A stretch of 64,000 bases of DNA from Ectocarpus siliculosus (taxonomy: Eukaryota > Sar > Phaeophyceae > Ectocarpales > Ectocarpaceae): assembly GCA_000310025.1 (NCBI GenBank), contig FN649758.1, forward strand, positions 4,155,534 to 4,219,533. The letters are read 5' to 3'. A model generated the notes under the pieces. The model made no database searches and was not told the origin of the DNA. It saw nothing but the letters and a program-made list of their open reading frames with translations. Positions 11,075 to 58,900 of the stretch are shown here, piece by piece (position 1 is the stretch's first letter; each line of letters begins with the position of its first letter). A program made the translations under genes and the position numbers.

Positions 11075-11237
11075 CGTCGATCAATCGCCCGTGTTCATAA
11101 CACGGGGCTGACATGCTGAGAGACGGCGATAATTGCTGGCAGGGATTGCCGCAACACCGTACTCTCGAGAGCATGCCACATGTCGTAGGCATTTAATGTA
11201 CGCTATCAAGCATACGTGGTCACTCGCATAGACGTAC
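11075..11237. repeat. Segmental duplication, copy A, left part
   Basis: This segment matches 55990-56155 (shared ACACGGGGCTG, ACTCTCGAGAGC and TACGTGGTCAC). In the 56-kb copy it runs directly into sequence matching 20967 onward, so everything between 11246 and 20958 is an insertion in copy A. Confidence 0.8.
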
Positions 11238-11245
11238 GAGTATAG
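11238..11245. repeat. Target site duplication, left (GAGTATAG)
   Basis: An exact 8-bp copy of 20959-20966, immediately outside the 9.7-kb insertion. Confidence 0.75.
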
Positions 11246-11265
11246 GGGTGATGTACATTATCCTT

Positions 11266-11345
11266 ATTCGTGCCCATGGGTACCCATGGGCATTGTACCC
11301 ATGGGTGCCCATGGGTACCCATGGGGCGTGGGTACCTATGGGTAA
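11266..11345. repeat. CCATGGGTACCC palindromic array, left end
   Basis: Overlapping NcoI-type (CCATGG) and KpnI-type (GGTACC) palindromes repeat about every 10 bp. The block adjoins the left terminal inverted repeat and mirrors the array at 20885-20937. Confidence 0.8.
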
Positions 11346-12183
11346 CGACGGTGGAAATTGCAAAACTCCCTCTGTTAGATGTATGCGTACGTACTCACGG
11401 TTGTGGACACTTTGGGTTCGGCACCCGGCATTTTCATACTCTCGGCAGTCACTCTCTTTCTCGGGGGCACAGAGCGGGTAACAACGCGATGCAACACTGC
11501 GCATGGCTGGTACTCGTAAGCCATTCACCTGCGGCGCCTGCCCTTACCGTTCAACCTCGCGTAAACTGGATGCATACCTGCGCTATGCTTACCGCCCATG
11601 ACAAAGAAAGGCGATGATTCATCACGTTGCAATATATTTGAAGGCATATCTGACGGAGGAAATGTGTATATACGAAGTGTAAAGATCCCAGAGCACGTAC
11701 TTCAAGCGGAAGGTCATCAGCTACCAAGGACAGGTAGCCGGAAACGCTACTCTAGTCAGATGGCATAATGGTCGGGGTCGCGTCCCCCCCAGCGAAGGGG
11801 TATCGGGGGCGCGTGAGGGTTAGCGCGCGTGAGTTGCCGCCCCGGTCGCAGTTTAGAGCCTTGGTGAACGTACCAACAGCGAATAACTCGACTCTCCGCT
11901 TTTGTTCATGTCCACAACTTGTACATCATGCTGATTCCATTGCTGCTGCCGCCCCAAGCGTCACCGCAGAGTCCAACGACAGCACCGTTGGCCTTTTAGA
12001 CTTCGCGGCGGGCACGGTGATACGCTGCGCAGCAGTTCAACTAGGCTGAGCGTGTGCACCCAACGTTGGTAATAACGTAGATCATGTGTGTGTTTGTTTG
12101 GGGTTGTGTCGCAGTGTACGGCGAATGGAATAAGTGTGGTGTGTTCTTTGGATGAAACGAGCGAACAATAAGGTTATGCTCGT
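11346..12183. other. No recognised gene
   Basis: Only short frames are open, the longest a 93-codon plus-strand frame at 11768-12049 without motifs. Confidence 0.45.
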
Positions 12184-13733
12184 CAAGGGCGCACAAAAAC
12201 AAATTTCCAACACCTACCCGACAAAACGTTTTTTGAGGCCTCTCCGGGGGGGGGAGGNNNNNNNNNNNNNNNNNNNNNNNNNNNNNNNNNNNNNNNNNNN
12301 NNNNNNNNNNNNNNNNNNNNNNNNNNNNNNNNNNNNNNNNNNNNNNNNNNNNNNNNNNNNNNNNNNNNNNNNNNNNNNNNNNNNNNNNNNNNNNNNNNNN
12401 NNNNNNNNNNNNNNNNNNNNNNNNNNNNNNNNNNNNNNNNNNNNNNNNNNNNNNNNNNNNNNNNNNNNNNNNNNNNNNNNNNNNNNNNNNNNNNNNNNNN
12501 NNNNNNNNNNNNNNNNNNNNNNNNNNNNNNNNNNNNNNNNNNNNNNNNNNNNNNNNNNNNNNNNNNNNNNNNNNNNNNNNNNNNNNNNNNNNNNNNNNNN
12601 NNNNNNNNNNNNNNNNNNNNNNNNNNNNNNNNNNNNNNNNNNNNNNNNNNNNNNNNNNNNNNNNNNNNNNNNNNNNNNNNNNNNNNNNNNNNNNNNNNNN
12701 NNNNNNNNNNNNNNNNNNNNNNNNNNNNNNNNNNNNNNNNNNNNNNNNNNNNNNNNNNNNNNNNNNNNNNNNNNNNNNNNNNNNNNNNNNNNNNNNNNNN
12801 NNNNNNNNNNNNNNNNNNNNNNNNNNNNNNNNNNNNNNNNNNNNNNNNNNNNNNNNNNNNNNNNNNNNNNNNNNNNNNNNNNNNNNNNNNNNNNNNNNNN
12901 NNNNNNNNNNNNNNNNNNNNNNNNNNNNNNNNNNNNNNNNNNNNNNNNNNNNNNNNNNNNNNNNNNNNNNNNNNNNNNNNNNNNNNNNNNNNNNNNNNNN
13001 NNNNNNTAGTGGAATTGAGGGGGGATACGCGGAGGGGGGGCGAAGGCGCTCAGTGCGAAAGCGCTTGAAGAAACGGCGGTTTAGTCTTGTTGAGGGAGGT
13101 GGAGGGGCCTGGGGGAGTGAATAAGTACTTGAACGCACGGTAGTTGCAATTGTGGACGGGTGTTGCACGTGGTGAAGGTGATGCTACTGCCGTAGGCTCA
13201 TCGGCAGCCCCTCCTCGGTATGTTGCCGCATTGAGTATGCTTGGATTCCACGGCTTGGTTCTGGCGTGTCGTGTGCTATTTTGCATTATTCGCCCGAGGC
13301 CAAATTAAATGTCGCGGACTTGTCGCAGAAGCATTGAGAAGTTCGAAGTTACTTCTAGCTTGAGGGGGTGTCCCCAAGCACTGTACTCCCAAAACTTGAA
13401 AACCAACTAGAAGTTAGTAGCCCATCCAACCTGTAGCCCATCACCAAGTTGCCATCACAGCTATTTATACGAAGTAGCAATCTTCCGGCGCCGAATGTAC
13501 ACACCATTAATTATGTTAAACCTATCCAACAACTACGTGGTAACAAGGTCCTTGTGCACTTCTGCCTGCCGTAAACACCAGCACACGAAAGCATTACCAA
13601 TGGAGAGGGAGAAAGCTAACAAAGCCTCTACAAAAAATGTACCACGAAAAAAAAACTTTTTTCGTCCCCTCCGGGGGGGGGGGGGGGCGGGTAGGTGTGC
13701 AAGAAGACTTTTTTTGTGCGCCCTTGTGCTCGT
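12177..13733. mobile_element. Second TIR element of the CAAGGGCGCAC family, gap inside
   Basis: The element spans 12184-13726 with CAAGGGCGCAC at the left and its reverse complement at the right. It is flanked by the 7-bp direct repeat TGCTCGT (12177-12183 and 13727-13733). It lies in the opposite orientation to the 3326-4009 copy. Behind the gap, 13010-13425 repeats 4240-4640. A basic tail like that of the 4-kb fragment (RRRSVRKR) is readable on the plus strand just after the gap. The gap probably hides the body of the coding region. Confidence 0.8.
12258..13006. other. Assembly gap (749 N)
   Basis: Unresolved bases between a G-run and G-rich sequence. Any frame reported across it is an artefact. 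Confidence 1.
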
Positions 13734-14829
13734 GGTAGAAAATATTTATGCGTGAGGGGCCTTGTCAACGGAGGGATCTATGCGCCACATCTTCCCAAAG
13801 ATTGCTTTTGTTGTCCTGGGCACTCTTGTCGCCGTCCTCGTGCAAGAAGAGGCGGGAGTCCGCTGGCACAACCTCTCACGGAGGTTGGCAGCCACGAACA
13901 GTGTACATGGAATGACGTGTCGCAGCACCTCGTGCGTGAAGCTGTGGGTCAAGTTTTCCTCTTGACCGGCTACAAGGAAGGCTGAACCACATGCTTTGGT
14001 ACTTACAACGGACATCGAACGCTAAATTACTTGAAATACGTGATATTCGTTGCCGTACGCAGGAGCGGCCGACAAGGATTGGATATTTCTTGTCCACACA
14101 CCGGTGTTAACCCCCTCCTGTGTAGCCTTGGATGGTTGTAGTTGTACGGAAAAACGATTCTGAAAGTCTACACTTTATTACTCTGCGTACAATGAAAAGT
14201 GTCGTGTACGTCTCACGACGAAAATGGGAGTACTGTCGCCATACCAAGTTGGACGCCACCAATAGAAACCTGGGAAGGTCGTGCAAAAATGGTCATGTAC
14301 GTACGCGGTTGTCGTCACCTTGAAGCCTCTCACCGAAAACACACCCGCGGACGCTCTTGCCGATACACGGTATACGAGAACATGGCAACAGGTAACGACC
14401 ACTGTAAATGAAGCAGGCAGCCGCAAGGATGTTACTTGCATTGTGGGAGAGAATAACCTTGGAGGACCCGCTGATGGTAGTAAGTCGTTCCATACTTCGA
14501 TTGAAAACACTAAACAACTGCGAGAGAGAAAAACCATGAGGACCCGATGATGGTAATAAGTCGTTCCATACTTCGATTGAAAACGCCAAACAACTGCGAG
14601 AAACAAACGTGGCGCAACACGAACGACTGAAGTCCCACAAAGAAAACCAGGGAATACCCCGCGTCGGAACATGCACGGGGCGCCATTCGTAAACCTCTTC
14701 ACCCCACCGTGCCAGAGCGAGCTCGAGTGCCCTGGTCTACAAAACCACGATCATTCATCACGAAGTATGGAGCTGGCCACCACCAGGCATTTCCCCGCAT
14801 AGTACTGCGCGCTTCAAGTGTTTATCCTT
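13734..14829. other. No recognised gene; one tandem duplication
   Basis: Apart from the 76-bp duplication at 14462-14606 there is nothing I recognise. Confidence 0.45.
14462..14606. repeat. Tandem duplication, period about 76 bp
   Basis: Two copies beginning GAGGACCCG and sharing AAGTCGTTCCATACTTCG and AACAACTGCGAGA, with a few substitutions. Confidence 0.8.
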
Positions 14830-16163
14830 TCAACGAGTCAAAGATGCATCTCTAAACTGAACCCTCTTCAGCGACCTTGGCCACATGCAACCACACGTAA
14901 AACCGTCACCTGTAGACATCCCGTCAAACCTCAGTTCGACTATAGCTCTCGGCCAACGTACGCCTGACAGTGGTTGTTGGAAGCGTTTGCCAAACGACAA
15001 CTCCTTCAGGGTAGGAGCCCAACATGACTCGAGAGTGATTGAATGATCCCCCGAAGGCAAGCGACTCCAATCCAGGCGGCCACTGCAAGGTGTAAACCTT
15101 CGTGTTGAACTTACCCCCAAGCACCAACGTCTTTAGGCTCGTAGGCCATGTGGTGTCGCTTACACGCCACCCGCAGCCTGACCCAAACTCGAAAGCTTCT
15201 AGCGTGGACGGCCACTTAGCGCGTTCTACGGAAACCATGTCGTCGAAATCATCCGGGAACACAACTATATGCAAGTTCCTGGGCCAATGAACGGCATCAA
15301 CCTTCTGGTTGAATTTGAAGGCGAACGATAACTCCAACAGCCCCTCAGGCAACTGCATGCCTTGTATTGGGCTGTTGAAACTCCCCCCCAACCGTAGGAC
15401 CTTGAGCGTGGCAGGGAGTACCACAGGAGGCCTCAGCCCCCCGTTCCACGCACCCCCCAAGGTGAGATACTGCAGCGAACCAGGCCAGATAACGTCTAGC
15501 AGGTTCTGCTGGAACGCATCACCGGCCGTCAGAGCGATCAATGCATCCGGCCAATGATAGCCGGTCAACGGTTGGTCAAAGCACGTACCAAACGCCAAAC
15601 GTTGCAAGCTACTGGGCCAGTGGACTGCGGCGATTGGCTGGTTGAAGCATCCTCCTAGACGAATGTCCTCGATGGAATCTACGAAAGTCACACCTTCGAT
15701 GGACCTGTTGAATGTGCTTTCTAGCGAAAGTTGCTTCAAATTAGGAGGCGTACTGATACTTTCGAGTGGCTAGTTGAAGCGGCTCTCGCAGCCGGATCCG
15801 AACGACATCACCTCAACGGTGGCCGGCCACACCACTCCGTCCATGGGCGAATTGAATAAATCCTTGGCCCGAAATATACGCAAGTGACTCGGCGGCAACA
15901 TGGACCTGTGATTGCCCGCTAGCGGACCATAAGTCCGCGGAAAGCGACAGCATCCTTGCGCCTTGCATGTTGTCGTGAAACTTGTTAAAAGAAGGGGCGG
16001 ACGTACATGCCGACCAAGTAATCGCAACCGCAGTCGATGGCTTCAGCTTGGTTAGCCACTCTACCAATTCTCTATCGTATGTCGGCCCCTGGTAAGTTTC
16101 GTCGCCTAGGGTACTCCTGAGGAGAGGATCCAGCATCCCTCTGTGGGTTACTGTGGCACACAT
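14830..16163 (-). pseudogene. FNIP-repeat protein with about 14 WP-type repeats
   Basis: The minus strand reads through a long run of roughly 24-residue repeats of the form WPxxLxxLxFGxxFNxPI, for example WPSSLQRLAFGTCFDQPL and LPATLKVLRLGGSFNSPI. The main frame (16027 to 14924) has one in-frame TAG at 15770-15772, exactly where FNQPL is expected, consistent with a CAG-to-TAG change. Near 15030 a one-base shift moves the repeats into another frame that ends at 14830 (LKELSFGKRFQQPLSGVRWP). The N-terminal part (16163 to about 15900) is in a third frame. It diverges strongly from the three plus-strand copies. The repeats probably form a solenoid for protein binding; the damage argues for a recently lost gene. 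Confidence 0.7.
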
Positions 16164-16188
16164 CGCTGCTATGTTGCATATCTGACAG

Positions 16189-19100
16189 GGCGGGCTTCAA
16201 CTCCTACGCTGAACTGCACTCCAACACGGCCGCCGCGGACGTCGTCGGCGGCCGGGAGTTGCGCCTCCTGGGTTCGGAGCTCCTGCAGTGCTGGGAGATA
16301 TACGCCGTGCTTAAGGCCGCAAATGATGTCGGTAAGAAAGTTGCGTTGTCCCCTTACTGCAACATGCTGTATTCTGTTGTGACAACACAGCAGACCTCTC
16401 CCCGCATTGGAATACATTTTCCATCGACGGCGAACAAAAATTAGTACCCAATCCCCAATCCGACCGCGTACAGGTTAACAGTAACTTCTCGTAGGAAGGA
16501 TAAGGGAGCGCCGAGCAGGGGACATGCGTGCGAGCCTTTTAATTGGCAGTAGTCAATCGTTTGTTTCTTCTTGTCTTTCCTCTGTCATGACGCAAGGGGT
16601 GGGACACCTACCGGGGGTGGGAGATGTTCGACAAGCCTTAGCGGTTACACGAACGACCGCGCGTCCTCGACAGCACGGAGGGTTATTCACACAGAACCGA
16701 CAACCGATGGCGAGTCGCCTTCAGCTATCGTGCTGGCAGCTGACTCAAGTTCTTCGTCTTGCTTGCCGTTACTCAAACTTTCTCCGTTTTGATTGCGTGC
16801 AAGGTCCACACAACAAGTGGTACGCATTGCCGGGCCAGGCACTCAAGCCAAGGGATCCCAAGGCTGTCGATGTGTTTGATGAGAGAGGTGAGCAGTCAGG
16901 ATGCAATCATTGGGCGGGGCTACGTCGTGTCGAGGAGGAGCTCAACGACAGGTACTGGAGAGACTCCCCGTGGGTAGATCACGCTTGTGATCAGTGCCGG
17001 AAGTACACTCCCATAGAGGGACAGGACTTCTGGACGCAGGCGGCCGCGATAGACGGCAATACGTCCACGCGATACTTCAAGGTCTGCAAGTGTTTTTTTT
17101 CGGCGGAGAATGCCTTACTCTTGGCTCGTTTTATTCTGGTGTCGCAAAACAGTCTTATACTTCGTCGCCGCTATCCATACCTTCCGCTCGTGGCGGTTTG
17201 GGTTCGTCCGCTCCAAACACTGCCAAGAACGTTGCACAGCGGCGGGTAGATGATATAATTCTTAAATGATGCGTATTGCCGGGACTTTGTTAGGCGCATT
17301 TCGATGTTCTCGCCGTTAGTTGGCGCTGCCGTGTGTTTTGCATGGACCTGCCTTTCGAGGCGCCGTGGATAGGGGCGCTAAGTGTCACTTGAACGTCCCC
17401 GTACACACACTCCTTTGTTGTCGCACGGGCACAAATGCGCGTTCTGGGTCGCACAACCGCCCTGCGGAAACAATCGCGAGGACAACAGGCTAACGTGCAC
17501 AGCACACCAGGCACAGGAGGACGAGTTCAACAGAAGGAACCGGGAGGTTACGTGGACTGCTGCACAGCGAGCGCGCTTCTTGGACCAGGAGGTGTCGTAG
17601 AATCAACGCATGCTACGCCCACACCCCTTTTGGACCAAACAGCAATTTACGACGAAGCGTTTTTGATGTGGGGTTTCTGCATAAACATCCATCGCGGCGG
17701 TGGCATACCCTGTGATTGGTTACCGACATGATATCGTCTTTACATCACCAGAGGGTTCGGGAGGGCTTCTCAACTACCTCTCAAGTATGTGTTTCGTCGT
17801 GAGTCAAAAGATGAGTTCTTAAAGGGGAGGCTCTGGACTTCTTCGAAGGTACAGGGCTGCTTGGGGTCCTCCTCCTTCATCTGGCCCGTTTTTCAGAACC
17901 CCAATAACTGTTACTCCTTTCCCCTTGAGTTCTTTATTTTTGGTAGTTTTTTTTTGGAAAACCGCTCCGATAGAGGGGTGCCTTTTGCTTCAGCAAGAAC
18001 AAATGTTAGAGGTACTCCCGTACGTGATGTGTGCACGTTCCACTCTAAAAACTCTCGCACAAGCGCCGTGGCTTTTGCATCGACTGCCCCTCTGCTTCAT
18101 GGGCGAGAAATATCCACCTCTACGTATTTCCTTCAACAGTGCAAGCTATTTTACCCTACACTCTACTCCTAACCCCACCACAGCTACAGGACAATAGGCG
18201 CGTTCCGGTCGGGATGAACCCTCCGACATGGGTTCTCAGGCGAGGACGGAACGCGCCCGGCAGACAACGAGAACATTTTTTGTCACACCGCATGGAATTG
18301 AGACAGAAGGTCCACAGTTGAGGGTGTACATCACCATGTACTCCAAGAATACACTGTAGGAGGGCCTGCGATTGAAGCCCACCTGACACCGCAGGCTTCG
18401 GGTTTAACCTATTTTGAACGTGGCGGTATCGAATGTATCATAACGAATCTGGCGCGCATGGGAGCAGCCGGATTTAAGCCGCATTGATCGGCACCATCAC
18501 AAACCCCTAGCTCCCTTGTCACTGCGTGCGTGTGTGTGCCGACAAAATAGCCTGAGGACATGAGGATGCTCCGTGCAATCCTAGGAAGGAAGAGCAGCTG
18601 GGGGAGCCTTTCCGCGAGCTGGTCTTGCGGGATCATCTGCGGGATAGTGCCCCTCTTGGAGGCGGAAGGATGTGCCGATGTGGACGCGGCCCTGAAACAT
18701 AATTTTCCCGATGAGGATCGACGCCCGACCATCCTCTTCTACGACAAGGCCTGCGTTCTGGACCGCTACCTGAGCGGCCGAGGGGATCTGTCCTGGGTTG
18801 GAACGATGCTGATCGTCGACCGGTACTTGACACATGGGTCTGTGGTTCCAAAGCACCCAGGGCAATTCAACGGGAGACTACGTAAACCTCGGCCTAAAGT
18901 AGGGCGTGCTCCCTGTGAGTAAGTTACTCACAGCAGCAGGTTGGGCGTTCTAAGTTGTAGTTTGCGGGGCGTTGGGGGTGGCGTGTACAGTGTGTCCAAA
19001 CTCCAACTTGGAATGAAGTGCCGTCGTCGAACACATACCCCTGCCGTACCCAATATCCGTGTTGTGCGCATATCATTACTGTGGACGCCGGCAGGTTCCA

Positions 19101-19564
19101 TTATCGGGGCCATACGGAGCTTGCGTTGTCTATCCTCAACAACCCAAACGACTACAACAACCTTTTTCTGTGGAACTTGCAGCAAGACCCGAGTTCTACT
19201 GGAACTCCTCCATCGCCGAGTCCAACAACGGGTGGCTAAGCGGTGCGTCAGATACACCCTGCGTCGAACCAATAGCAGTTTCTGGTTAACACCGTCATTA
19301 CAGCCCCCCGTTGATGTCTTCTCCTCGCTGTCTCACTCGTAATCCGTGTTGTTTCATCCATTAAGGCTAAGTACCTCCAACTACGTTAACTACCCTCACT
19401 TGTTCTGAAACGCATGCCTCTCTTGTTGACCAGGGTTTCGACATGTCCTCATGCGCATGCCAAAGGTGCTGAACCGTTTCGTCTTGGACAACAATATCTG
19501 CTTCAAGAACGAGCTCCTGCTCACCAAAAAGCTGTTGTCCCAGCACCCGACCTTTGACCGTTAG
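16189..19564 (+). pseudogene. KDZ/CxC6-type transposase-like gene, decayed
   Basis: Exons at 16189-16331, 16804 to about 17090, about 18568-18822, 19095 to about 19289 and about 19434-19564. The first junction (GTAAG donor, GCAAG acceptor) and the 18822/19095 junction keep phase and produce the reading VDRFHYRGHTE. Order of signals: a CxxC block (HACDQCRKY) followed by AAIDGNTST, like the CxC6 zinc module; then TILFYDKACVLDRYL; then VDRFHYRGH and NPNDY; then FYWNSSIAESNNGWL; then FRHVLMRMPKVLNRF. I recall this order from fungal and algal KDZ transposase relatives. A one-base frame change near 19190 is needed to reach the NSSIAE block, so the copy looks inactive. The 17.1-18.5 kb stretch contains nothing I can place. 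Confidence 0.5.
16629..16720 (+). repeat. SINE-like tRNA-derived piece (shared with 48.3 kb)
   Basis: It shares TTAGCGGTTA, CGTCCTCGA and ACCGATGGC with 48301-48395 in the same order and spacing. The A-box-like to B-box-like distance is about 57 bp. It lies in the first visible intron of the KDZ-like gene. Confidence 0.5.
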
Positions 19565-20004
19565 TGAAGCACGTACAACACATACTTCCGGAACGGCAGG
19601 TTGAAGACGTCGGGAACCGCACAGCTCCCGCTGCCATCTTTTTCGTCCTCCTACGGTGTGTCGAGAGCGGGCCAACATTCCTACCGATCCGAGTTCCCTG
19701 GTGCTCTCTACCTAGCAGAGTGGAATTCCACCCGCACAGATATCCTGGGGTGATGGGCTGAAGGATGCACTTGGTTTGGTTACGCACCATTTGCGCTGCC
19801 TATGGGGCTGCTTTACGTACATTCGAGCCAATGGGAAGATAGTAAACACGCATTCGTGCGTGCCCGTTCAGGTGACAAAAGGGTTTCAAACCATACCCGA
19901 GGCTTTCCCGCCCCGCGGCCCTCTTCATTGCGTCGTAGTTTTCCGTTTATTTCTGTCTCGGTGCAGATGTTTGATACATTCGCGCCATAACCAAGTGAAA
20001 TTAC
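19565..20004. other. No recognised gene
   Basis: Downstream flank of the transposase-like gene; only short frames. Confidence 0.4.
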
Positions 20005-20375
20005 CCCGTGGGTACCCACGGGCAATGCCCATGGGTTCCCACAGGGAATGCCCGTGGGTACCCACGGGTTCCCACGGGCAATGCCTATGGGTGCCCGTGG
20101 GTTCCCACGGGCAATGCCTATGGGTGCCCATGGGTACCCATGGATTCCCACGAGCAATGCCTATGAGTGCCCATGGGTACCCATGGGTAGTGCCCGTGGT
20201 TACCCATGGTGACCCATGGCCACACACACACATGGTGACCAATGGGCACCCAAACTGATGCCTAACGCTAGCCCATGGTCGTCACCGTGGGTAGCCACAG
20301 GCACTCGTGGTGTTAACCGTGGGTAGGGATCCATTGGTATCGGTGATGTAGCACCCTACGGGTGCCGACGGGTAA
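20005..20375. repeat. CCATGGGTACCC / CCCGTGGG palindromic array
   Basis: About 370 bp of imperfect tandem units built from CCATGGGTACCC and CCCACGGGCAATGCC, drifting to CCGTGG-type units on the right. Open frames across it, rich in Gly, His, Trp and Pro, are a by-product. Confidence 0.85.
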
Positions 20376-20884
20376 TCATGATGATCACCACGGGACCTAT
20401 TCGTCCCGACTAAGGAAAGACGAAACGTCTTGGAGCTTTGAAAACAAAAAAATCCACCGTACCGTTTAAATCTGCAACAAGTAAGTATGATGAAGAGACC
20501 TGCCCAAGGCCTCGGCGTGCGCGTGCACTGTACGAAACACGGGAGATGCGACAACGCCCTCAGCGTCGCGGCGTGGATCTTGGGTGAGCCTAGCGCCGTG
20601 GATCTGGGCGAGGGCACAATGACGCGCTTTCCTCCACGCCCACACCAAGCCAGTTCAGTTGTAAAGTTGTCATTCGGCTTTAGATACCTTCCTCTCTTTC
20701 GTTACATTCTTGCGCCGAGCTGGAATAATGCTGGACTCACTAACTGCTGTGCTGTGAGCCGGCCACGGAACCTTGGGTGTACCAGCTCGCTGTAGCCGCG
20801 CCTTCGTCGACCCCGCCTAATCGATGTTATAGAGTACATTACGCTTAATCTAGGTACCCGTTGTGATCCCCGTGGTGGTCAAAG
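20376..20884. other. No recognised gene
   Basis: Short frames only, between the two right-hand arrays of the large element. Confidence 0.4.
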
Positions 20885-20937
20885 CCATTATGGTCCCCCG
20901 TGGACCGTGGGTGCCCGTGGGTACCCATGGACACGAA
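20885..20937. repeat. Right subterminal palindromic array
   Basis: A short array of CCGTGG and CCATGG palindromes ending in the right terminal inverted repeat; the mirror image of 11266-11300. Confidence 0.75.
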
Positions 20938-20958
20938 TAACGATAGTGTATATGACTG

Positions 20959-20966
20959 GAGTATAG
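20959..20966. repeat. Target site duplication, right (GAGTATAG)
   Basis: Exact copy of 11238-11245. Immediately outside it, GTACAACATGCAG matches the empty-site paralogue at about 56165. Confidence 0.75.
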
Positions 20967-21634
20967 GTACAACATGCAGAATGAGCTTGATGAAGTAGTT
21001 TGCGATACATTGGTCCAACCGTTCTTTCTCTTTCTACCCACCGCGCCATATCTTTACAAGTGACTGTTAGCCGTTCGTTCTGCGGACTGCGGAGACGCAT
21101 GACCCATTGGCGCTTGGCGTACGGTACTACTCATGCGTTCCTCTATTGCCCAAAATATGACATCGACAATGAGGACAAGACGATTTCGGCTACTTCGCAT
21201 CTGTGCCGCCCATACTGCAGGAAATATCCCTCTTCTCGGTTCCTTCGCCGAGAATGTACAAATTTCACCCACTCCAGACTGAAACTTGCTTGGGCAACCA
21301 CGTCACTGAACCATTTTTTGTGCAGTGGTGGGAAGACATGCGCATGAGGCACCTAAAACAAGCTGGAACCTATTGACGGTGTCGTATCACTACCTGTTTG
21401 TGGGCAGCAAAAGGCACCATATCGCTACGCACATTACACATTTGGGACCACCTCCGAATCTCCCCCCCTTGTGCTGCCCTGAAACGTTCTACTCTTAAGC
21501 ATAGGGGAATGAATGAAAATACCAAGCCGGCGCCCGACGTTCGAACTGTGGGGAAAACTCAATACAAGACCCTCAGGACCCTTGTTCAACCACCCTTCAT
21601 CCTGATGCTCGCTCATCACTAGCCGATTGGCGTC

Positions 21635-21685
21635 CTACACTACTGGGCAGTTGTCGTCGTCGCCGTTGTGCACGTCCGGACAGTA
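21635..21685 (-). CDS. Pmp-like gene, terminal exon 8
   Basis: 16 codons and TAG. The duplicate at 56821-56871 encodes the same peptide apart from one D/N change and also ends in a stop, which supports this as the true C-terminus. Confidence 0.65.
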   Translation of the reverse strand, partial: YCPDVHNGDDDNCPVV

Positions 21686-24600
21686 CTGGATTGAAGAAGG
21701 TGGGTTCCAAACGAACGCGGGGTCAATGCGGGACGGATCGAAGGTTTTTAGTTCGTTCCTTGCTCCCCCCTGGCGAGATGTGCATCATTATTGTTTTGTT
21801 TTTGAATTGGTGACGACCTGTCAAAACCTATTGGGGCTGCAATTCCCGGACGACTGTTCTGAACTAGACAGGTTTCGGCCACTCATAGTCGGACTATGAT
21901 ATCTTGCACGTACCAGCGAGAGACGCCGACTACAGGAGAGGTGGAGACGATTGTGTGTTCTTCCGGGCGAAGGGTAATCAACCGCGTTTGTATTGCCATG
22001 TGCGAATATCACATTGCCCACACCATCAAGACAACTGGTACCACCTCCACTTCCTCCGCGCTGTTCGTGTTCGTGGTGCTTCGCCTGTAACTCCCAAGGG
22101 AAACGGGCACGCAAGGGTGTCAACATTAACAGTCACGCTCTCACCTCGGCGCGGTTGTCTTCGAACACGGTGTCATCGGGGAACGTGGTAACCGACCCGG
22201 GACCATCGGCGTCGTTGGTGTAAATTGCTCCACCCCAGTGGGCCCAGTTATCTCTGAAAGTTGTAGATCCCATCAACCTAGGAAATCACATGCCGCAGAG
22301 AGCACGAAGCAACGAAGGTAAAAAGGTTAGTTGAACATTGGGCAATTTGAGACCGAGATGAACTCACTCACAAGAGACAGACGTACGAACAACCGACGTT
22401 GGGTGCAACCGAACCTACACGGTCGCAAAAACTACGACAGGGGGCAAGTTCGGTATGAAAGCAACGTGAAAGTCATGAGCGTGCATTTTAGAACAACGAG
22501 ACAGCGAAGACCGGATCTTCATGTGAGCATGCCGCACGACACCCTACGGTAGGTAACATGACACAGATACCACTCCCGCTTGGATCGATTTTCACAGCTC
22601 AATTACTGCACGAGGGTTAGGGTCCGATAGCCGAATGATGTCGTTTCAGAACGAATGATTCCACCGCCGATACTTTCTGCCCCACCACTCTTTCTGGTGA
22701 AGGGTAATCGCGCTTAAAGAATCGGTTCAGGGGCGTGATATGCTGTGTCAACTACGGTATGTAGTTTGGCCGCCTGTGAATATTCGTCAAACCACAAGTT
22801 CGAATGGAATGTACGAAAATAGGGTCTTTCCGTGGGTCAGACCTACCTCACCAGGAGATCAGGTCAGCATTGATTCGTACCAGACTAGGTTAGTTCAGGC
22901 AGCAAACAATATCGCTTGCCCCACCAATGGAATCCTCGCGATCTGCGCGGTTGACCCGCGGGTAAGTTCTGTCAAGGCAGCTGCATAGTCACTGCAGTTG
23001 CTGTGCAGCTTTTTCTTCAGCTGTAGCGACAAAGTAGCTGGCATGTGATGCGGGGTCAGGTAGGCAAATACACAGAGTACTTTTAGTTTCCACAGACGCC
23101 CAAGATAACCGTTACAGACTTGGCAACGCCTTCACAATACCGTATCAAACCCCTGCAGTAGAAAATAGTCGTTTTTGTACCGCAAGCACTCCAGCGATTT
23201 CCCTGCCCTACCAATACTTATGTGGAACGGGATTTGTGACAGTTGATACAAAACTGACCAGTGATACACGCACGTGTGCAAAGATTGCGAAAATGTAATA
23301 GGGTTGAGGCGCCTCTCGGATTGGTAGCTAGGCTAGCGTCGGAGGCAGTGGATGATGTGACCGACATGTTTCGTTCAAGCCATCGCCTGGGCTCTGGCTA
23401 AATGTCACATACCAAGACGACGACCACCGTTGCAGGCTGAACTGCCAAGCTCTGCACGTCAGTGAACCAAACCATCGGCATTGTGGTAGGCCTATTTGGT
23501 CATCACGTAGATCTGAAGCGTAGCTATCACGAGGGCCGTTCGAAGACGTCGCCGGTGAGGTTTAGGTCATGAAGGATTCGAAACGTCGCGGCCAGAGCAC
23601 GCAATAAGCGCTCGGGATAAACGTTGGTCGTTAACCCACCTGACCCGCAGCATTCGACCTGTCTGTCGCCTTGGTACGACACCCAACACGACTACGCATG
23701 GTGTCGCTGTTACTCACGTCACCACCCCTCCTTTTGTGTTGAAAATAGCTCCACCGAAGCCGCCGTCGCCGGACGCGCTGGCCCAGTTATGCTCAAAGAG
23801 ACTACCGGCGTTGATGTTGACGACGCCACCATTGTTCGTCAGACCGCCCCCTGTCGGCTGGTGTCGTCGGCCATGGCATGGGGTCAACAAGCAGCACGAC
23901 ACACCGCAAGGTGTTGTATGACATGATGGCCGGACAGGTGGACCACATGCCACGTTACCTCGGGTCGCGACTGGCGTCAAAACAAAATTCCTTGGAATCG
24001 TTATGGCCCACCAGTGGGACAAAAGCCATGGCGCAAAAGGGTTAAATATTGATATCAAAACAAAGTATCTTGCCCGAGGAACTGCACGTCAGTGCCCGGC
24101 GTGAAAGATTCCCTACCAGGCAACTCGTCAGTAACATTTGTCCGACCGTGTATGTTTTGAATTTCGAACACAACTCACCAAGTAACATTCGCCACAACTT
24201 ATTCATTTCTACCAAGCCCATCCACTGGGTTGAGTCTGGTCAGTTTCTCATTCCACCCCGAAGGTCCATAGGGCCTACATGAAAGGACAACATACGTACC
24301 GGCAGCCGCTACAGCAAGATGTTTGAGCGGATGCCTTACACCTCTTTTCAGTTTGACACATCAAAAGATGCTACAAGTTGAAAACACATATGAGGATTCC
24401 ACGTAAATATCTCGAAATACCACAAGGAACCTGTGTAGAGGCTCAATAAATCACGCTGTTTCGATGTCATTCGATCCGACAGCGAGCTAGTAGACTCCTT
24501 ACCTCGCCAGCAAAATTCTCCGAGAAAGTGGCCATGCCGTTGAAGGTCATGGTGCCAATCGATGTCTGGTGGATCCCGCCGCCGGCCTGCATAAGACGAC

Positions 24601-27600: not shown

Positions 27601-30600
27601 CCGTTCCAAAGCAGATATCAATTATCTAGGAGTTCACTGGTTAGGTTGGGCTCTCATTGACCGCCCATGGGCTTCCCATGGGTTGCCCATGGGCCGCCCA
27701 TGGGCTGCCCACGGGCTACCCATGGGGACGCTCATGGGCAACCCACATGGGCTGCCCATGGATGACCCATGGGAGTCCCATCGGTCGTTTGGGAAATCTT
27801 GGAAAGTGTGGGAGACCCCAGAATAGGATGGGGTGCAACAGAAGAAAAATATGAAAAGAGCGGTGTGTGTACGCGCACCACCCTGGAAACAAACCGAGCA
27901 TTCATTGCACACATCGAGCACTTCCTCACTCCGGCGCATCAATCCCAACCACCACAATGGTTTGCACCAGTAGGCGTCTACCGCCTATTTCCACTATGTA
28001 TGAGCTGTGGGTAAATGCTCTGATGTCCAACTGCCGTGTCGGTTAAGCGGCATGTGCTACGAATAATGTCATCCAGCCAGCGCGACATGTGTGCGCCCGT
28101 CGTTCTCTCCCAAGGCTTGTTTTGGAGTTTACACAGTTTACTGGAGACCAGCGCATACTGGCATGATACGTATGGGTGTGTGTGCTACGAGCAGGTGTAC
28201 ATGAGGTGCATGCAATGGCATTTCAGGGCGGCTGGTGCTTGTAGTTACTACTATTGGGTGGGTGAGATGCCGAAAATATCACTATTGAGCGACCCGTCCG
28301 ATGTGTGCCATTCACTACAGTATATCGGGTTGAGATGTTGAGATTTTGGCAAGACGTTTAGATGCCGCTTTATCGGACGCATAGTTGCCACTATATCGGG
28401 CCACACCAACTGCCGTTTTCGCTTTCGAATAAACAACAAGTGAGTGCGCCCCCCCCGTCATCTGTTGCAGAGTGGATGTGCACGAAACGGTAAGTGTGAG
28501 GTAGATTTGCAGGCTTTACCCCCTCCTCCTATTGCGCGGCGAGTTCGAAGGCAATAACTTTGGAAACTTTCCCAAAATTTGGAACTACCATTCCAAGGTT
28601 TTGGGGCCTTGGTGACTTGCAATTTTTCCGAAACATTTCCAAAGTTTTCGATGACTTCCAAAATTTTGGAGTTTTGGAATTTGGAAATTTGGAAAAAACA
28701 GCCATGACAAAAACGGCCCTTATAGACTTGTACCCAGCCCGCAAAGAAAATGTCGCAAGAATAATTGTCAGCCATTGGTCGATGTTTGTGGTACTTAGAT
28801 ATGAGTCCGATCTGTGCATCCTCTATGGGGGATACGCGTATGGGAAGTATGGGTGTGATGGGTATGTATGGGGTTGAGATCCAAATGCGGGGCCTCCGGG
28901 TAAGCACACGGCGGTGTGCTCCCGGCACTTGCCTGAGGGGCTCGCGTGTCGGATACCAGCTTGCCTGAGGGGCTTGCGTGACGGATATGTAATATGTAAT
29001 ACATGGTCCTTTTTCTTCTGCTTTTGCTGGGATAACATAGTGCCCAGCCTCTAACACCACAGACCGCTGAGGGCGGCAGTGCACACTAACACGATATATC
29101 GTTTTTTTTTTTTTAACACACACTCCGCCACTTGCTCTCCCCAGCGGCCCTCGACATCACGTGTAGCACCTGGAGTAGTGCGGCAACGTGATGAGGTGGA
29201 TCTCATGGAGGGCGGATTCAGAAGTAGACGTGTAGCGAAGGAACACATGCTTGGATCGTATCACGTTGCTGTAGTTTCGCCGTCTGAAGCGGCAGCAGCA
29301 GCAGCGGCGTCCCCGGTCGCCGCGTTGGCGTCGGGTGTCCAGACGGCCGCAGGGGCGGCGGCGGCGGCACCGGTGACGGAGGTATGTGACGAAGAGTTGG
29401 AGGAAGCGGTTGGTGCGACAACCACGCCATTGCCAGTCCTGGAGGAGCTTGAAGGCCAATGTGCTGGGGGGAACGTGAGCAACAGCAGCAACAGCAGCAT
29501 CAGTAGCAGCAGCTGCAGCAGCAAGGACAGCGGCGGCGATGGGAGCGAGGACGAGGGGTTGGATGGAATCTGGAATGGAGCCCCGACGCACCCTTTCGAC
29601 CAGGGAAGGCTGAGGGGGACGTGAGCAGCAGTAGTAGCAGCAGCAACTGTAGCAGCAGCGGCGAGGACAGCGGCGATGGCGGGGAGCGGGGACCAGGGGA
29701 TGGATGAAACCCGGAGTGGAGCCCCGACGCACCCCTTCGACCCCGGTAGGACATCTTCGCGTGGCGCGAGGAGAAGGGGGGTGGTACCAGGGGTGGCGTA
29801 CCCCTTCGATAGGGGCAGGAACGGGAGTGACAGCTCCGGCGGCGGCAACGCCGGCAGCCGCAGCAGCGAGGACAACACACTTAGAAAGATCCCGTCCACC
29901 TGGCCTGCTGGTTTCAGTTTTCAGCAACAACAGGCGCAGGGCAGAGTGTCGCCACCTGGGTGTTGCTTGCGATTTCTTCAGTTTGCCAGCTCATTTTCAC
30001 GGTTGCGACTCCCATCTTTGACCACCACCTGCCCAAAGGTAGACGAGCTCAACAATCATAGGGCGGCAGCCGCGCTGACGGCCAGCATCATATAGATGGC
30101 CAATCCGAAAGAATTAGCGTGTCGGGGGCCCTGTTGCTCTACTGCTGCGTGGTGCCGTGGATTGATGTTGATGCGTCCGACCAAAAACGCAACATCTCGC
30201 CGCATTTTTTCCAACGGCATTTTGGTGAGGTGGCACACGTCTCACACACTTTATTGAGCAGCACCCAAGCACCCAATACCCACGAAGCAGCACGGCGCCG
30301 GGAGATGGTATCATATGGACAGCTGAACCGAAGGAATCAGCGCGTTGGAGGTCTTGGTGCTGCTGCTGTACTCGTTCTACTGTTTCCGTTTTTGCTATGT
30401 GTGATTGAAAAAAGTCCCCCGGCACCAACAGCAGCAGTTGAAGACGAGAGCACCACGCAATGTCTAGTTTTGCGCCAAGAACCGACTGAACGCCGTTTCT
30501 GCCGCTTGTCCATCTCCACAACAGACCTGGACGTGAGTTTGGCAGGTCTTTCTAGCGTTCTGAGTGATGTTACAGCGCCCGCGGTGCGCTTGTCCGATGC

Positions 30601-33600
30601 TTCTGTCAAAAACACGGATTCGTGAAAGTAGCAAGCCCCCAAACCCGGCTCCTTTTCACGCTTTCGGGGAAACACGCCTCCATATGTGTGCAAGAAAACA
30701 CGTTTTTTTTTTTTTTCGTGTTTTATTGGTCGATAAGAACGACCCTTAGCATCGACCGCGCTAACCGGCTGACCAATGAAAAGGGTGTGTGTGTTTGTGT
30801 GCAAACAATTGCTAGTGCTGCTGTTACTGGCAATACCTATGGTACAAGCCACACTCATGCACAGTCAGGTTCACACACATTGTACGGTGCGTCAAGTTTA
30901 ATGCTCGCTGTGTTCAACAACATATTGCAGTCCCTAGAGAAGCAAGCGTGGAAGGAGCATGACGAAGAGGCACACTTACTTCTCACGGCTTCGAACCTGC
31001 GCCTACATGTAGTCTAATGTTCTTTTCTGCTGTACATCACCAACGATCTGTGTGTACGTGCACGAGATACCCCGGTCGTGGGACGCGTGGACGTGCAGAG
31101 CCTGACTAACGTTGTCAAGCCCGATTGTTTGGTACATGTACATAGAGAATGGAACGACAGGCCACCAGCAGAAATTATGTAGTCTATATACTTATGTAGC
31201 AGAGAGCTTACGACGCGCTCGTATTGATTTGTCCACTGCGCTTTCAGTGTTTTTTTGGCAATTCATTTGTGTAAACATACATAATCCAACAAATACGAAT
31301 TTCGGCGCGTGGAAATCTAAAAAAATGGTGTTGGGAAGATTGGGACAACAATATTTTAGGGTGCACTTTTGCCCACGCTTTGTTCAACAGATGACAGTGC
31401 ACAGTGGTGTACTGCATGGCTTTGCCACGCTTGTTCAACAAATGGCAGTGAGTGGTACAGCACCAAGCTTCAGAAAGATCACAATCTGCAGTATATTTGG
31501 CCGTGCCTAAACATTCTGCTAGCTGTCATCTCGTGCATCCGCACCTGCATACTCCCGACGCAGTAGCGGCTACGGTTTAACCGTAACATGTTTAACAGCA
31601 AGTCCGGGTTTATCAGTGAGAGGTGAGCTGGCTTGAACTGGCTTGGCAGGGTCTCCCACACTTTCTACACTTTTCCCAAACGGCCCATGGGTGACCCATG
31701 GGTGCCCCATGGGCGGCCCATCGGGCGTTTGTTGCCCATGGGTGACCCATGGGTGCCTCATGGGTGCCCCATGGGCATGCCCATGGGCGACCCATATGGG
31801 CTGTCCATGGGGATGCCCATGGACAGCCCATGACGCGCGGCCCATCGTAATGGTGGGCTACCCACCATGGGCAGGGTTGCATGGGCAACCCATAGTGGGC
31901 AGCTCATGGGCAGCCCACCATGGGCATGGGCAGCCCACGGGCAGCCACCATGGGCATGGGCAGTCCACGGGCAGCCCACGATGGGCGGATGAAGCCAGCC
32001 TATCGTGGGCAGCTCATGGGCAGCCCACCATGGGCTGTCCATCGTGGGCAGCTCATGAGCAGCCCACCATGGGTGGTTTGTGGCCAGCCTATCATGGGCA
32101 GATCATGGGTAGCCCACCATGGGCAGAGAATTGTTGGCAGCTCATGGGCAGGGCAGGAAATGGTGGGGAATGGGCCGCCTTTGTTGGGCAGCCTTTGATG
32201 TGGCCATCGTGGGCAGCTGATGGGCACAGCCCATCCATCATAGGCTATCGACATACTCCCTCTAATGGAGACATAAGATCGGTTAGGACATTTCTCGCTA
32301 TGATGCGGAAACAAGAAGTCAGGAGTTCGATCAACACCTAATATTTGTTTTTCCAAAAAGTATTTCTTCCATTCGATTTTGCCTCTCGTAGCGTCTCATT
32401 CTTGCCACCCTCACACGTTTTCCTTCCGGTCAACACCAAATACAAAATACGAACAAGTGAGAGGGACGCTCTACCGATAGCTGAAATACTCAACATTACA
32501 AAAAAAAAATAAAAACAGAAGAAGCAACTTTTGGGGCCGTACAAGATGGGCCGCACGAGATAAACATCGACACTCACTCGGTTCCTTACTGACAATGTTC
32601 GCTTGAGATTACTGCGGGAGCAAATTTCAGCAGGGAGGGGATGAATCATGTTTGGGGTGCTCGGCAGAGTATACTGTCTACGGGGCCTCCGGGGGGTACG
32701 CGGATGAAATGTGTTGATGGGCATGCTGCATGGCGATGGTGTTGCCTACCGCATGTCTCTCACTCTCTAATCAACAAAGGTCTTGAGTCAACCTTCTTTC
32801 TCTTTCGGCCTCTGACGGGCTACCGCACCCAAACACAATATATTGTACGGCCTGGTGTTGGTAGTGGGTATTGGCGTCTGAGCTGTATGTGCCGGGCCAA
32901 TGGGGCGGCGAATACGATATACAGTAGCGGCTACGGATTTAAGAGAGAGGAATTGGCGTGTACCAATAACAATCGATTTAAGAGAAATTTCCTTTTGCAG
33001 CTGGGATTTTTCTCTTAAATCGAACAATGTGGAAACCACGTGGACACACACACCCACACAGCTGCAGACACCATGCCCTGCGTGGCGGGCAGTCGCTGCA
33101 CGGCTGTCCCCGATCACACGCCAGGCCCGCCGGCGTTCACAAACCACCAATGTAGAGGAGTCTGCAGGCAGTACCTCCATGGCACCTGTGGTGTGGTGGA
33201 CCCTCAGGGCACCTCCGAGATGCATCGCATCTGCCACAACTGCCTTTCCTCCCGTGAGCGCATGACTTCAGGCTGTAGAGGACAACGTGGAGGTAGCCGA
33301 AGCGATCGTTACAGAGATGGTAGAGGACCTCTGTGATGAGAATTTGGTGGGCATGGATCTTTCCTCTGACGACGAGGACGACGACCTGGTTGAGCTACGC
33401 CAATCGGGACAGTCGGCGGCGGCAGCGGCCCCGGCTCCGCCGCCGTACGCGAATGTAGCAAATCATTTTGGTGAACTTGAGGATACTGCCGAGAAGTGCC
33501 GCATGTCCGAAGTGTCTTTTCACCTCCGCAAGGCTAAGCTAGCGTGGATGAGTGCCTACGGTTCGAGGGAAACCAAGCAGACGTGCATGAGCGACTTCCT

Positions 33601-55989: not shown

Positions 55990-58900
55990 CGTGCATCGAT
56001 CAATGGCCGTGTTCCGAACACGGGGCTGGCATGTTGAGCGAAAGCGTTATTTGCTGGCAACGATTGGTGCAACACCATACTCTCGAGAGCTTGCCACATT
56101 TGGTAGGCATTTGAAGTACTCTATCAAGCGTACGTGGTCACTTGCATGGACGTACTACAATGGATGTACCACATGCAGAATCAACTTGACGAAGCAGTTT
56201 GTAATACGCCGGCCAAATAGACCTCTCTCATTCTAGTCACCGCGCGATGTCTTTACTTGTGACTGTTTGCCTTTCCTGCTGCGGACTGCTGAGACGCATG
56301 ACACATTGGCGCTTGGTGTACGTTACTACACGTGCATTCCTCTAGTAAATATGACATCAATGGTGAGGACAAGACCGCTTCGTCTACTCCGTATCTGTGC
56401 CGCCCATACCGCAGGAAATACCCCCTTTTGTCTTATCCTTCGCCGAGAATGTACAAGCCTCACCCACTCCAGAACTATCTTGTGCGAGACTGCGTCACTG
56501 ATTCATATCTCTTGAAGTTGTGGGAAGACATGCACATACGGCACCTCACAAGCTGGAATAGGTTGACGGTGTCGTCTCACTACCCGATTGTGGGCAACAA
56601 TAGGCACCACGTCGCTACCCGTACATCAGACATCTTGTACCCCTCCGAATCTCGTCCCTCACGTGCTGCTGTGAAACGTCCTTTTCCAAGCACGAGATCG
56701 ACGTGCGAACGGTGGGGAAAACTCTTAACATCACAAGACCCGCAGACACAACAACGCATCTACAAAGTTGCTCAACCACCCTTCATCCTGATGCTTCCCC
56801 ACCACTGGCCGGTTGGCGTCTTACACTACTGGGCAGTTGTCGTTGTCACCGTTGTGCACGTCCGGGCAGTACTGGATTGAAAGTGGGTTCCAAACGAACG
56901 CGGGGTCGATGCGGGACGGATCGAAGGTTGTTAGTTCGTGCCTTGCTCTTCCCTGGCGATATGTGTTTAATCATTGTTGTTTTGATTTAAAATTGGTGAC
57001 GAACTGACACAACCTTTTGGGGCTGCAGCTCCCGAACTAGGCCCCGGCTTGTGAGCGGGCGCCATCAAAACTAGACAGGTTTCGACCACTCATAGTCTGA
57101 ATATGAGATATTTCACGTATGAGAGAAAGATAGTCCTCCTTTCGTCAGGTATCGTGTGTTCCTCCGGCGAAGGGGAATCAATCACAGTTTATTACCATGT
57201 GCGACAATCACATTACCCACACCATCAAGATAACTGGTACCATCTGCGTCCACTTCCTCGCGCTGTTCGTGGGTCCGTGCCGTGTGTAGCACCCTAGTGA
57301 AACGGGCACACAAGGGTGCTAACATTAACATTCACGTTTTCACCTTGGCAGTGTTGTCTTCGAACACGGTGTCATCGGGGAACGTGATAGCGGACGCGGG
57401 ACCGTCGTATTCGTAATCGCCGTCGGAGGTATAAATTGCTCCACCCCAGTAGGCCCAGTTCTCTCTGAAAGTTGTCGAACCCATCAACCTAGAATATCAC
57501 ATTCCGCAGAGAGCACGAAGCAACGAAGGGATCACGGTTAGCCATGAACATTGAAAAATGTGAGACCGGGATGAACTCATTTACAAGAGACAGACGGAAC
57601 AACCGACGTTGGGTGGAACCGACACGTTCGAAGAAGTTCGACACGGGCAAGGTCGGCATGATAGCAACGTGAGGGTCATGAGGGTGCGTTAGGAAACGAG
57701 ACAGCGAAGACTGGATGTCCACGGGAGAATGCCACACGACACACTCCGATAGGTAACATGCCGTAAGATATCACACCCCTTTGGACCGCTGTTCACAGCT
57801 CGATTACTCCACAAGGAAGAGGGTCCCATAGCCAAACGATGCGTTCTTGGAACTCCCGACGGCATGATTCCATCGAAGACATAATCTGCACTACCACTCT
57901 TTCTGGTGAGGGGTATTCGAGCATCAAAAAGCGGTTCAGGGGGCGCGATGTGTTATGTCACCTACGTCAAGTAGCTAACCTTAACCCGTAAACATTCGCC
58001 AAACCCTAAGTTCTAAGATACGAAAACAGGGCCTTCTCGTGGGTCAGACCTGCCTCACCAGGAGATCATGCCAGCACCTATCTTTACCAGGTTAGATTAG
58101 GTTATTAAAAAGTTCATGCAACTAACAAATACGCTTTGCCCCACCAATAGAACCCCCGCGACCTGCGAGGTTGACCCGCGGGTAAGTTCCCTGCCCCGCC
58201 TACATCTAAGCGGAACGGGATTCGCGACAGTTGATAAGTTGATAAAAACACGACCTTGTGAATCAAGCGCGTGTTCAATGATGGCGACACTAATTGTTTT
58301 GAGGCGCCTCTCGTGGATGGTTGCTAGACTAGTGTCGGAGGCAGTGGATGCTCTGACCGACATGTATGTTTCGTTCTAGCCGTCGTCCGGGCTCTGGCTA
58401 AATGTCACACACGAACACAACGGACACCGTTGCAGGCTGAATTTTCAAGTTCTGCACGTCAGTGAACCAAACATCGACATTATGTAGGTAGGCCGGACCC
58501 TATCCCAGAGGTGTCTGTCTATGGCGAGTAGAGTGACACACTGGTCACCTAGATCTGAAGCGTAGATAATTCGACAATGATTGGCCATTCAACGACGTCG
58601 CCGGTGAGATGAGGTCACGAAGGGTTCGAAACGTCGCTGGCCAGCATTAACAACAAGCGCAAGTGGAAAAAGGTTGGTCCGTAACCGACCTGATCCGCGG
58701 CAATTTTGACCCGTTTGTCCCCTTGGAAAAACGCCCAACACGACTACGCATGGCGCCACTGTCACTCACGTCACTACCCCTCCGTTTGTGTTGTAAATTG
58801 CTCCACCAAGGCCGCCGTCGCCGGACCCTGTGTCGAAGTTGAGCTCGAAGTGGCTACCGGCGTTGATGTTGATGACGTCACCATTGTTCATCAGAACGCC

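Follow-up and report, generated by a model that had tools for sequence, protein, structure and literature searches.

A DNA transposon of Ectocarpus siliculosus, probably CxC6-class and KDZ-like, with an FNIP-repeat gene as a probable accessory gene

A 64,000-nucleotide stretch of the genome of the brown alga Ectocarpus siliculosus (contig FN649758.1, positions 4,155,534 to 4,219,533; hereafter the window) contains a DNA transposon that inserted there with an 8-bp duplication of its target, and that carries the broken gene of a presumed transposase on one strand and the remnant of a gene for FNIP/FGxxFN leucine-rich repeats (LRR) on the other. We are fairly confident that it is a defective copy of a CxC6-class (KDZ-like) cut-and-paste transposon, in which FNIP is a recurrent accessory gene dispensable in cis. 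The element includes the FNIP-LRR gene. With both of its genes broken, the window copy is inactive by itself; it presumably either moved in trans or broke after its insertion.

The element, its copies and the transposase gene

The element and its boundaries, with the evidence on which they were placed, are as follows.

11238..11245, no strand: left target-site duplication (TSD) GAGTATAG (sequence and TSD test)
11246..20958, + strand (the orientation of the transposase-bearing strand): transposon (ends, genome copies, empty paralogous site)
11246..11292, + strand: left terminal inverted repeat (TIR), starting GGGTGATGTACATTATC, with the same or nearly the same start in most fetched copies
20912..20958, + strand: right TIR, terminating CGATAGTGTATATGACTG
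20959..20966, no strand: right TSD GAGTATAG (sequence and TSD test)
55996..57399, + strand: paralogous locus without the element, empty site at 56156-56165

An earlier note, made from the letters of this DNA, had described a transposon with an 8-bp TSD, imperfect inverted ends of about 40 bp, palindromic subterminal arrays, an FNIP solenoid gene on the strand opposite to the transposase and an uninterrupted paralogue at 56.15 kb, and all of these held up. The same GAGTATAG stands on both sides, and the TIRs are 87% complementary over 45 nt (11248-11292 against 20912-20956). The left flank aligns with the paralogue at 84% identity over 161 bp, where the match ends at 56155, and the right flank restarts at 56166 with 76% over about 1.2 kb. 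In most copies the termini read GGGTGATG...GACTG or ...GATTG, with TG at the right end only; 5'-CA..TG-3' termini of the Kyakuja type were not found at the ends of the window family. A pattern of the right end occurs at 34 places in the genome, against none for the reversed control.

The left-end query gave at least 110 matches and the right-end query at least 56 in the same 189-Mb genome (array repeats included), many of which pair at roughly 7.6-28 kb, so the objection that such ends might have no further copies fails. For the TSD test both expected ends were fetched for 22 copies, the window copy included; two were excluded before counting, as one end was not located in the fetched piece (the right of C68, the left of C25), and ten further single ends, which were unpaired, stayed outside the count. 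Identical 8-bp flanks were present in 14 of the remaining 20 copies, and all 14 duplications differ from one another; the chance of one such identity is about 1.5e-5. Because these copies have perfect and distinct flanks, they form a DNA transposon family with an 8-bp TSD, many separate insertions and dozens of copies.

The transposase gene was assembled from the following exons.

16190..16330, + strand: possible exon A, open in 5 of 6 aligned copies, with a donor-like end
16695..17081, + strand: exon B, with a C-x2-C ... DGNTSTRYFK block kept in four gene families
17424..17591, + strand: truncated exon D (CxC6 end), which has lost its start; exon C is likewise absent by comparison with other copies
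18616..18822, + strand: exon F, SCGIIxG...E...FYDKAC...VDR, its start probably further upstream
19095..19242, + strand: exon G, FHYRGHTE...SIAESNNGWLSG in other copies, here 4 bases short and out of frame
19434..19564, + strand: exon H with the stop codon (GFRHVLMRMPKVLNRFVLDNN...)

Exons B, C, D, F, G and H were delimited by splice-like borders in six copies aligned to the coding part of the window element (about 91-97%), their placement being aided by known KDZ and CxC motifs; a 5' neighbour of exon A was not found. The window copy has lost about 700 bp, including zinc exon C and part of D, and none of the six other copies is free of stops, frame-breaking changes and exon losses (a deletion in C489). 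The nine single translated frames of the window gave no meaningful Pfam match besides FNIP. The joined exons B-C-D of copy C33b scored 22.9 bits against CxC6 (PF18721; E=1e-4), below the cut-off of 27.5, and the joined gene of a paralogous family, 41% identical (C296, locus L068), scored 36.1 bits (E=7.8e-9), above it; the cut-off was reached in 4 of the 11 genome matches. Distant gene families of the same genome, at about 38-57% identity, keep an identical block order. Across an alignment of four families (A1; 37-41% identity to its first sequence), the CxC6 cluster is followed by YDxxC, DRFH and AExxN in fixed order, and D254, D279 and E323, numbered on that first sequence, are invariant together with neighbouring H, C and N residues among these few, pre-selected sequences.

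The encoded protein has a zinc cluster and, after it, conserved D/E blocks (YDxxC ... VDRFH ... WNxxxAExxN). It is probably a DDE-type transposase, and we take the + strand gene to encode a CxC6-class, KDZ-like transposase, whose zinc cluster was tested and whose catalytic role we infer. The KDZ-like transposase named in the earlier note therefore stands as far as its CxC6-class exons go, while the profile PF18758 did not establish that it belongs to the KDZ catalytic family. The exons did not match an unrelated host family, an outcome that the note had named as refuting. At one locus (L011, C200:9500-15200) two CxC6-type transposase genes adjoin, with exon F about 45% and 83% identical to that of the window family.

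The FNIP gene and its subtype

The FNIP gene lies next to the transposase module.

14830..16157, - strand: FNIP/FGxxFN LRR gene remnant, without reference codons 1-72, with an in-frame stop at reference codon 202 and with deletions

The repeats matched PF05725 at E=2.7e-25 in the window copy and at 4.8e-33 in C145. Other copies hold both modules as well: 27 of 40 FNIP loci (at least 67% identity) have transposase exon F or G within 16 kb, while of the 13 that do not, three still bear transposase sequence (C489:309689, C33:476709, C30:1064609). Conversely, FNIP is missing within 16 kb at 13 of 42 transposase loci (exon F/G at least 76% identical), a set that includes four loci taken for a sister family (78-87% identity) and one 31-aa match. 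These linkage counts are lower bounds, and several loci lie near contig ends.

All nine transposase-linked copies alignable over the 5' part of FNIP begin at reference nucleotide 217, that is, without the first 72 codons, and in the window the truncated gene meets the transposase module at 16157. Of 8 stop-screened copies, 6 (C68, C489, C33b, C233, C24b and C60) share a TAG at reference codon 347; the stops differ in the window copy (codon 202) and in C33c (codon 471). Copies C489, C24b and C60 share the site of a 2.2-kb insert in FNIP (L002:3063-5267 in C489) and have differing TSDs; in C489 this insert holds a 669-aa frame that resembles a tyrosine recombinase, as judged by eye. Despite their damaged FNIP, C489, C24b, C60, C233 and the window copy each have a perfect TSD of their own. 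Since perfect and distinct TSDs flank copies whose FNIP is truncated, interrupted or bears a stop, FNIP is dispensable in cis for transposition.

An uninterrupted FNIP frame of 519 aa from the first ATG is kept at C145 (L057), an FNIP-only locus derived from the element; C376 is 98% identical to it and interrupted by a one-base gap. At both loci a second element start (GGGTGATGTAAATTATCC) lies in the same orientation about 1.35 kb upstream of FNIP (L057:5178 for C145; L059:5336, reverse, for C376). The solved structures closest to FNIP are CroV588 (6nyr, E=2.2e-96) and CroV539. The model of the C145 protein has a mean predicted local distance difference test (pLDDT) value of 67, below 50 in the first ~100 residues and mostly 60-92 per ten-residue block in the repeats, and its top Foldseek match is again 6nyr (E=3e-13, query template-modelling score 0.50). 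The product is likely an LRR solenoid like CroV588 and CroV539, predicted to bind proteins.

Ahead of the repeats, the full-length FNIP protein has a stretch of ~130 aa that forms an N-terminal domain not made of FNIP repeats and modelled with low confidence. A search with one query, the C172 version, located this domain at nine loci (49 of 49 candidates scored), eight of them inside the window family or a sister transposon repeat. The left parts of C145, C376 and C16 place them in the window family. In C131 and C151 a palindrome array is followed by the terminus ...CGATGATGTACATGACTG. For C386 this terminus lies at a distance of 3.8 kb, and 4.5 kb of the locus are 97% identical to C151; C259 (96% over 2.4 kb) and C298 (94% over 2.0 kb) are copies of the C151 repeat. 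Near the ninth FNIP, C172 (41% identical), CCATGG palindromes are present and a recognisable end was not found. The 18-mer end of C131 and C151 and their type of array also occur about 1.6-1.75 kb past CxC6 exon H on C200 and C86. No left ends turned up for the sister family, and assembly gaps lie at those places. Two sister transposon families thus carry the FNIP subtype with the N-terminal domain. Because this subtype was found nearly only in these elements, FNIP is probably a recurrent, long-term accessory gene of the transposon lineage.

We propose that the CxC6-class transposase would move the element and stagger the target by 8 bp, and that its zinc part may recognise the CCATGG-centred subterminal palindromes near both ends. 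These are likely, though putative, binding sites because they occur at both ends and because the arrays of the sister family retain the CCATGG core with changed flanking letters. The FNIP protein would be a protein-binding accessory factor working outside the transposition reaction.

Weighing the alternatives

Several observations weigh against the reading of a CxC6-class transposon with FNIP as its accessory gene. Six of the 20 copies counted have no TSD (2-3 of 8 letters match). No copy read keeps both genes intact, so the intact copies that the earlier note had suggested looking for are missing among those read, in some of which both modules are present, and an autonomous element was not seen. 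The transposase core was joined by hand from genomic exons, without transcripts. The joined pieces of three paralogues (L015, L016 and L067) gave no CxC6 match, and the KDZ catalytic domain (PF18758) matched neither the joined proteins nor the genome in a profile search, which cannot show absence. As regards selection, the ratio of non-synonymous to synonymous differences (pN/pS) is close to neutral in the pooled transposase exons (0.74; 0.96 and 0.86 in the shifted frames), 0.77 for FNIP among nine damaged copies (shifted 0.85 and 0.86), and 0.54 between the FNIPs of C145 and C376, with just 30 differences (shifted 0.96 and 1.84). The single-query search for the N-terminal domain did not pick up the half domain that the transposase-bearing copies have, so more distant copies may escape it; among 11 other FNIP proteins the domain was not matched below E 0.05 (best 0.058), with 9 of the 11 frames starting at the edge of the fetched piece. 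In the sister family FNIP and transposase are linked through the shared right end only and not within one element. Between the window and sister families FNIP is about 40% identical, whereas for the transposase identity amounts to 82-88% over exons F and H and to about 64% over exon G (C5). This difference suggests that FNIP was swapped between the families, that related FNIPs were captured separately or that the gene changes fast, rather than simple co-descent.

It is a serious possibility, although we lean against it, that FNIP is an incidental host fragment, picked up in several captures of the Pack type with no lasting link to the element. FNIP is numerous in the genome (at least 137 matches among the best 150 of 1539 candidates scored) and in brown algae generally, with 121 proteins in Saccharina (PMC4421812) and 104 brown-alga sequences (PMC9525666) according to the texts consulted, the amplified copies share one damaged FNIP, and the low identity between the sister families would also fit. 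Giant elements without a transposase are likened to Pack-MULEs in PMC12477816. Captures made at random would be expected to draw on the common subtypes of the host, yet one subtype recurs, with its N-terminal domain at nine loci of which eight are in these repeats, and the uninterrupted 519-aa frame persists at the element-derived C145. We consider it unlikely that the CxC6 protein is an accessory zinc protein and that a true KDZ or other transposase elsewhere mobilises the elements. The CxC5/CxC6 genes of Pleurotus are repetitive yet apart from its KDZ transposases, which bear CxC2, as PMC7641404 describes them, and the KDZ domain never rose above threshold here; the gene lies, however, within TSD-flanked elements together with their ends, and its downstream exons have conserved acids, one paralogous core aligning weakly with PF18758 around the YDxxC block (E=0.14, 12.3 bits, cut-off 26.6).

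An origin of FNIP from an endogenous giant virus or virophage, as insertion target or gene donor, appears improbable. FNIP genes are reported from giant viruses and virophages (PMC10945749, PMC3671162, PMC2373305), but in this genome many TSD-flanked copies have FNIP between their TIRs, and no relative emerged from three scans of viral contigs, for transposase A1, for N-terminal domain A3 and for the whole FNIP, each with only a few short peptide patterns. The hAT, P and Merlin elements also make 8-bp duplications. For an element like one of these the TSD length alone fits, and we regard it as very improbable; no such domain was detected in the nine translated frames or the joined proteins, which showed CxC6 instead.

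Beyond the CxC6-class transposon with an accessory FNIP, which we prefer, a bolder and rather doubtful extension can be tentatively outlined. The CxC6 transposons might constitute a brown-algal lineage of their own, with the CxC6 protein as the transposase and not a helper of KDZ, and with a dedicated FNIP that is fast-changing, long kept, equipped with a private N-terminal domain and exchanged between sister elements, comparable to the differences among virophages in their FNIP, and that would act outside transposition, e.g., through attachment to a silencing factor of the host or to a protein of a giant virus.

Known systems and further features of the window

KDZ transposons of Ectocarpus were published in 2025 (Genome Biol, PMC12477816), with eight families making up 1.8% of the genome and many carrying additional transcribed genes, so a KDZ element in a stramenopile, one part of the combination that the earlier note had thought new, is not a novelty. 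Our element resembles those described there in occurring in a brown alga, in a size around or over 10 kb with additional genes, and in a transposase that is often pseudogenised and nested insertions fixed in several copies. It differs in that FNIP does not occur in the main text of that paper (0 occurrences). Among the features associated with KDZ, both a cysteine cluster of the CxC series and a TSD of 7-8 bp (8 bp in Zisupton-1_PGr, 7 bp in Kyakuja, as given in PMC12730594) are present here. In the Dileera, Zisupton and Kyakuja elements of fungi, as that paper presents them, the 8-bp TSD of Zisupton-1_PGr (Dileera lineage) corresponds to ours, and an accessory gene, there TET/JBP, was likewise acquired repeatedly by related transposons; their cargo is a dioxygenase and not an LRR protein, and the Kyakuja families, unlike ours, have 7-bp TSDs, CA..TG ends and no TIR.

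The CxC5/CxC6 inserts of Pleurotus ostreatus (PMC7641404) are similar in being multicopy CxC6-cluster genes in mobile DNA, but neither target site duplication nor terminal inverted is mentioned in the text of that paper. As far as that source goes, its authors left the mode of movement open and thought of assistance by a Copia element, not of a CxC5/CxC6 transposase. CxC5/CxC6 proteins are thus high-copy in at least one mushroom, with an unclear role (PMC7641404), and the CxC6 gene found between its own ends in TSD-flanked elements makes the idea of CxC6 as a transposase directly testable.

As to the FNIP gene, Mavirus and the EMALE virophages (MV20; PMC10945749, PMC3671162) offer, by these accounts, another mobile element of stramenopiles with an FNIP/FGxxFN gene that diverges strongly between elements otherwise alike, and this gene sets the virophages EV1 and EV2 apart (PMC10945749); a virophage is, however, an unrelated kind of element. 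CroV588 and CroV539 (6nyr, 7zal; PMC9525666) share the FGxxFN repeat type and the predicted solenoid, but the transposon FNIP has its own N-terminal domain of ~130 aa. The KDZ superfamily is not new in Ectocarpus; its partnership with the FNIP subtype that has this domain looks new, and no report of FNIP cargo in transposons was found in the main texts of open-licence papers, supplements excluded. If true, the restriction of an FNIP subtype to one transposon lineage of eukaryotes would parallel the FNIPs that virophages and giant viruses have within this branch of life, and would point to one possible source of some of the many brown-algal FNIP genes, which have hitherto been tied to viruses. 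FGxxFN repeats with WP endings are known from a brown alga (PMC9525666, in the part consulted) and were also seen in the genome of the window. The EsV-1-7 family is very large in the same genome (at least 150 matches, the best 150 of 880 candidates; 0 in 14 control genomes), and its domains are described as having proliferated in brown algae (PMC12477816).

The remaining features within the element are the following.

11273..11350, no strand: left subterminal array of CCATGG-centred palindromes
12184..13726, no strand: 1.5-kb insert unseen in the compared copies, holding an assembly gap (12258-13006)
20005..20330, no strand: right subterminal palindrome array with CCATGG / CCCRYGGG units

The 500-bp bin at 20000 contains 19 CCRYGG sites. 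Because arrays of the CCATGG type are also present in other parts of the window, in the bins at 27.5 and 31.5 kb, such arrays alone are no marker of the window family. These two further palindrome arrays, of the GCCCATGGGC type, lie at 27690-27830 and 31690-32200 (8 and 14 CCRYGG sites in bins 27500 and 31500) and are possibly the ends of another related element; the end motif was not found at them within 4 mismatches. The 12184-13726 insert, whose own ends look inverted (GGGCGCACAAAAA / TTTTTGTGCGCCC), is probably a nested DNA element. The insertion site of the transposon lies inside a duplicated stretch (11077-11237 and 20967-22200 against 55996-57399, 84% and 76% identical). A 70-nt tandem duplication is located at 14462-14531 and 14538-14607 (91% identical), and a short internal telomere-like TTAGGG run is present at ~27560 of the window.

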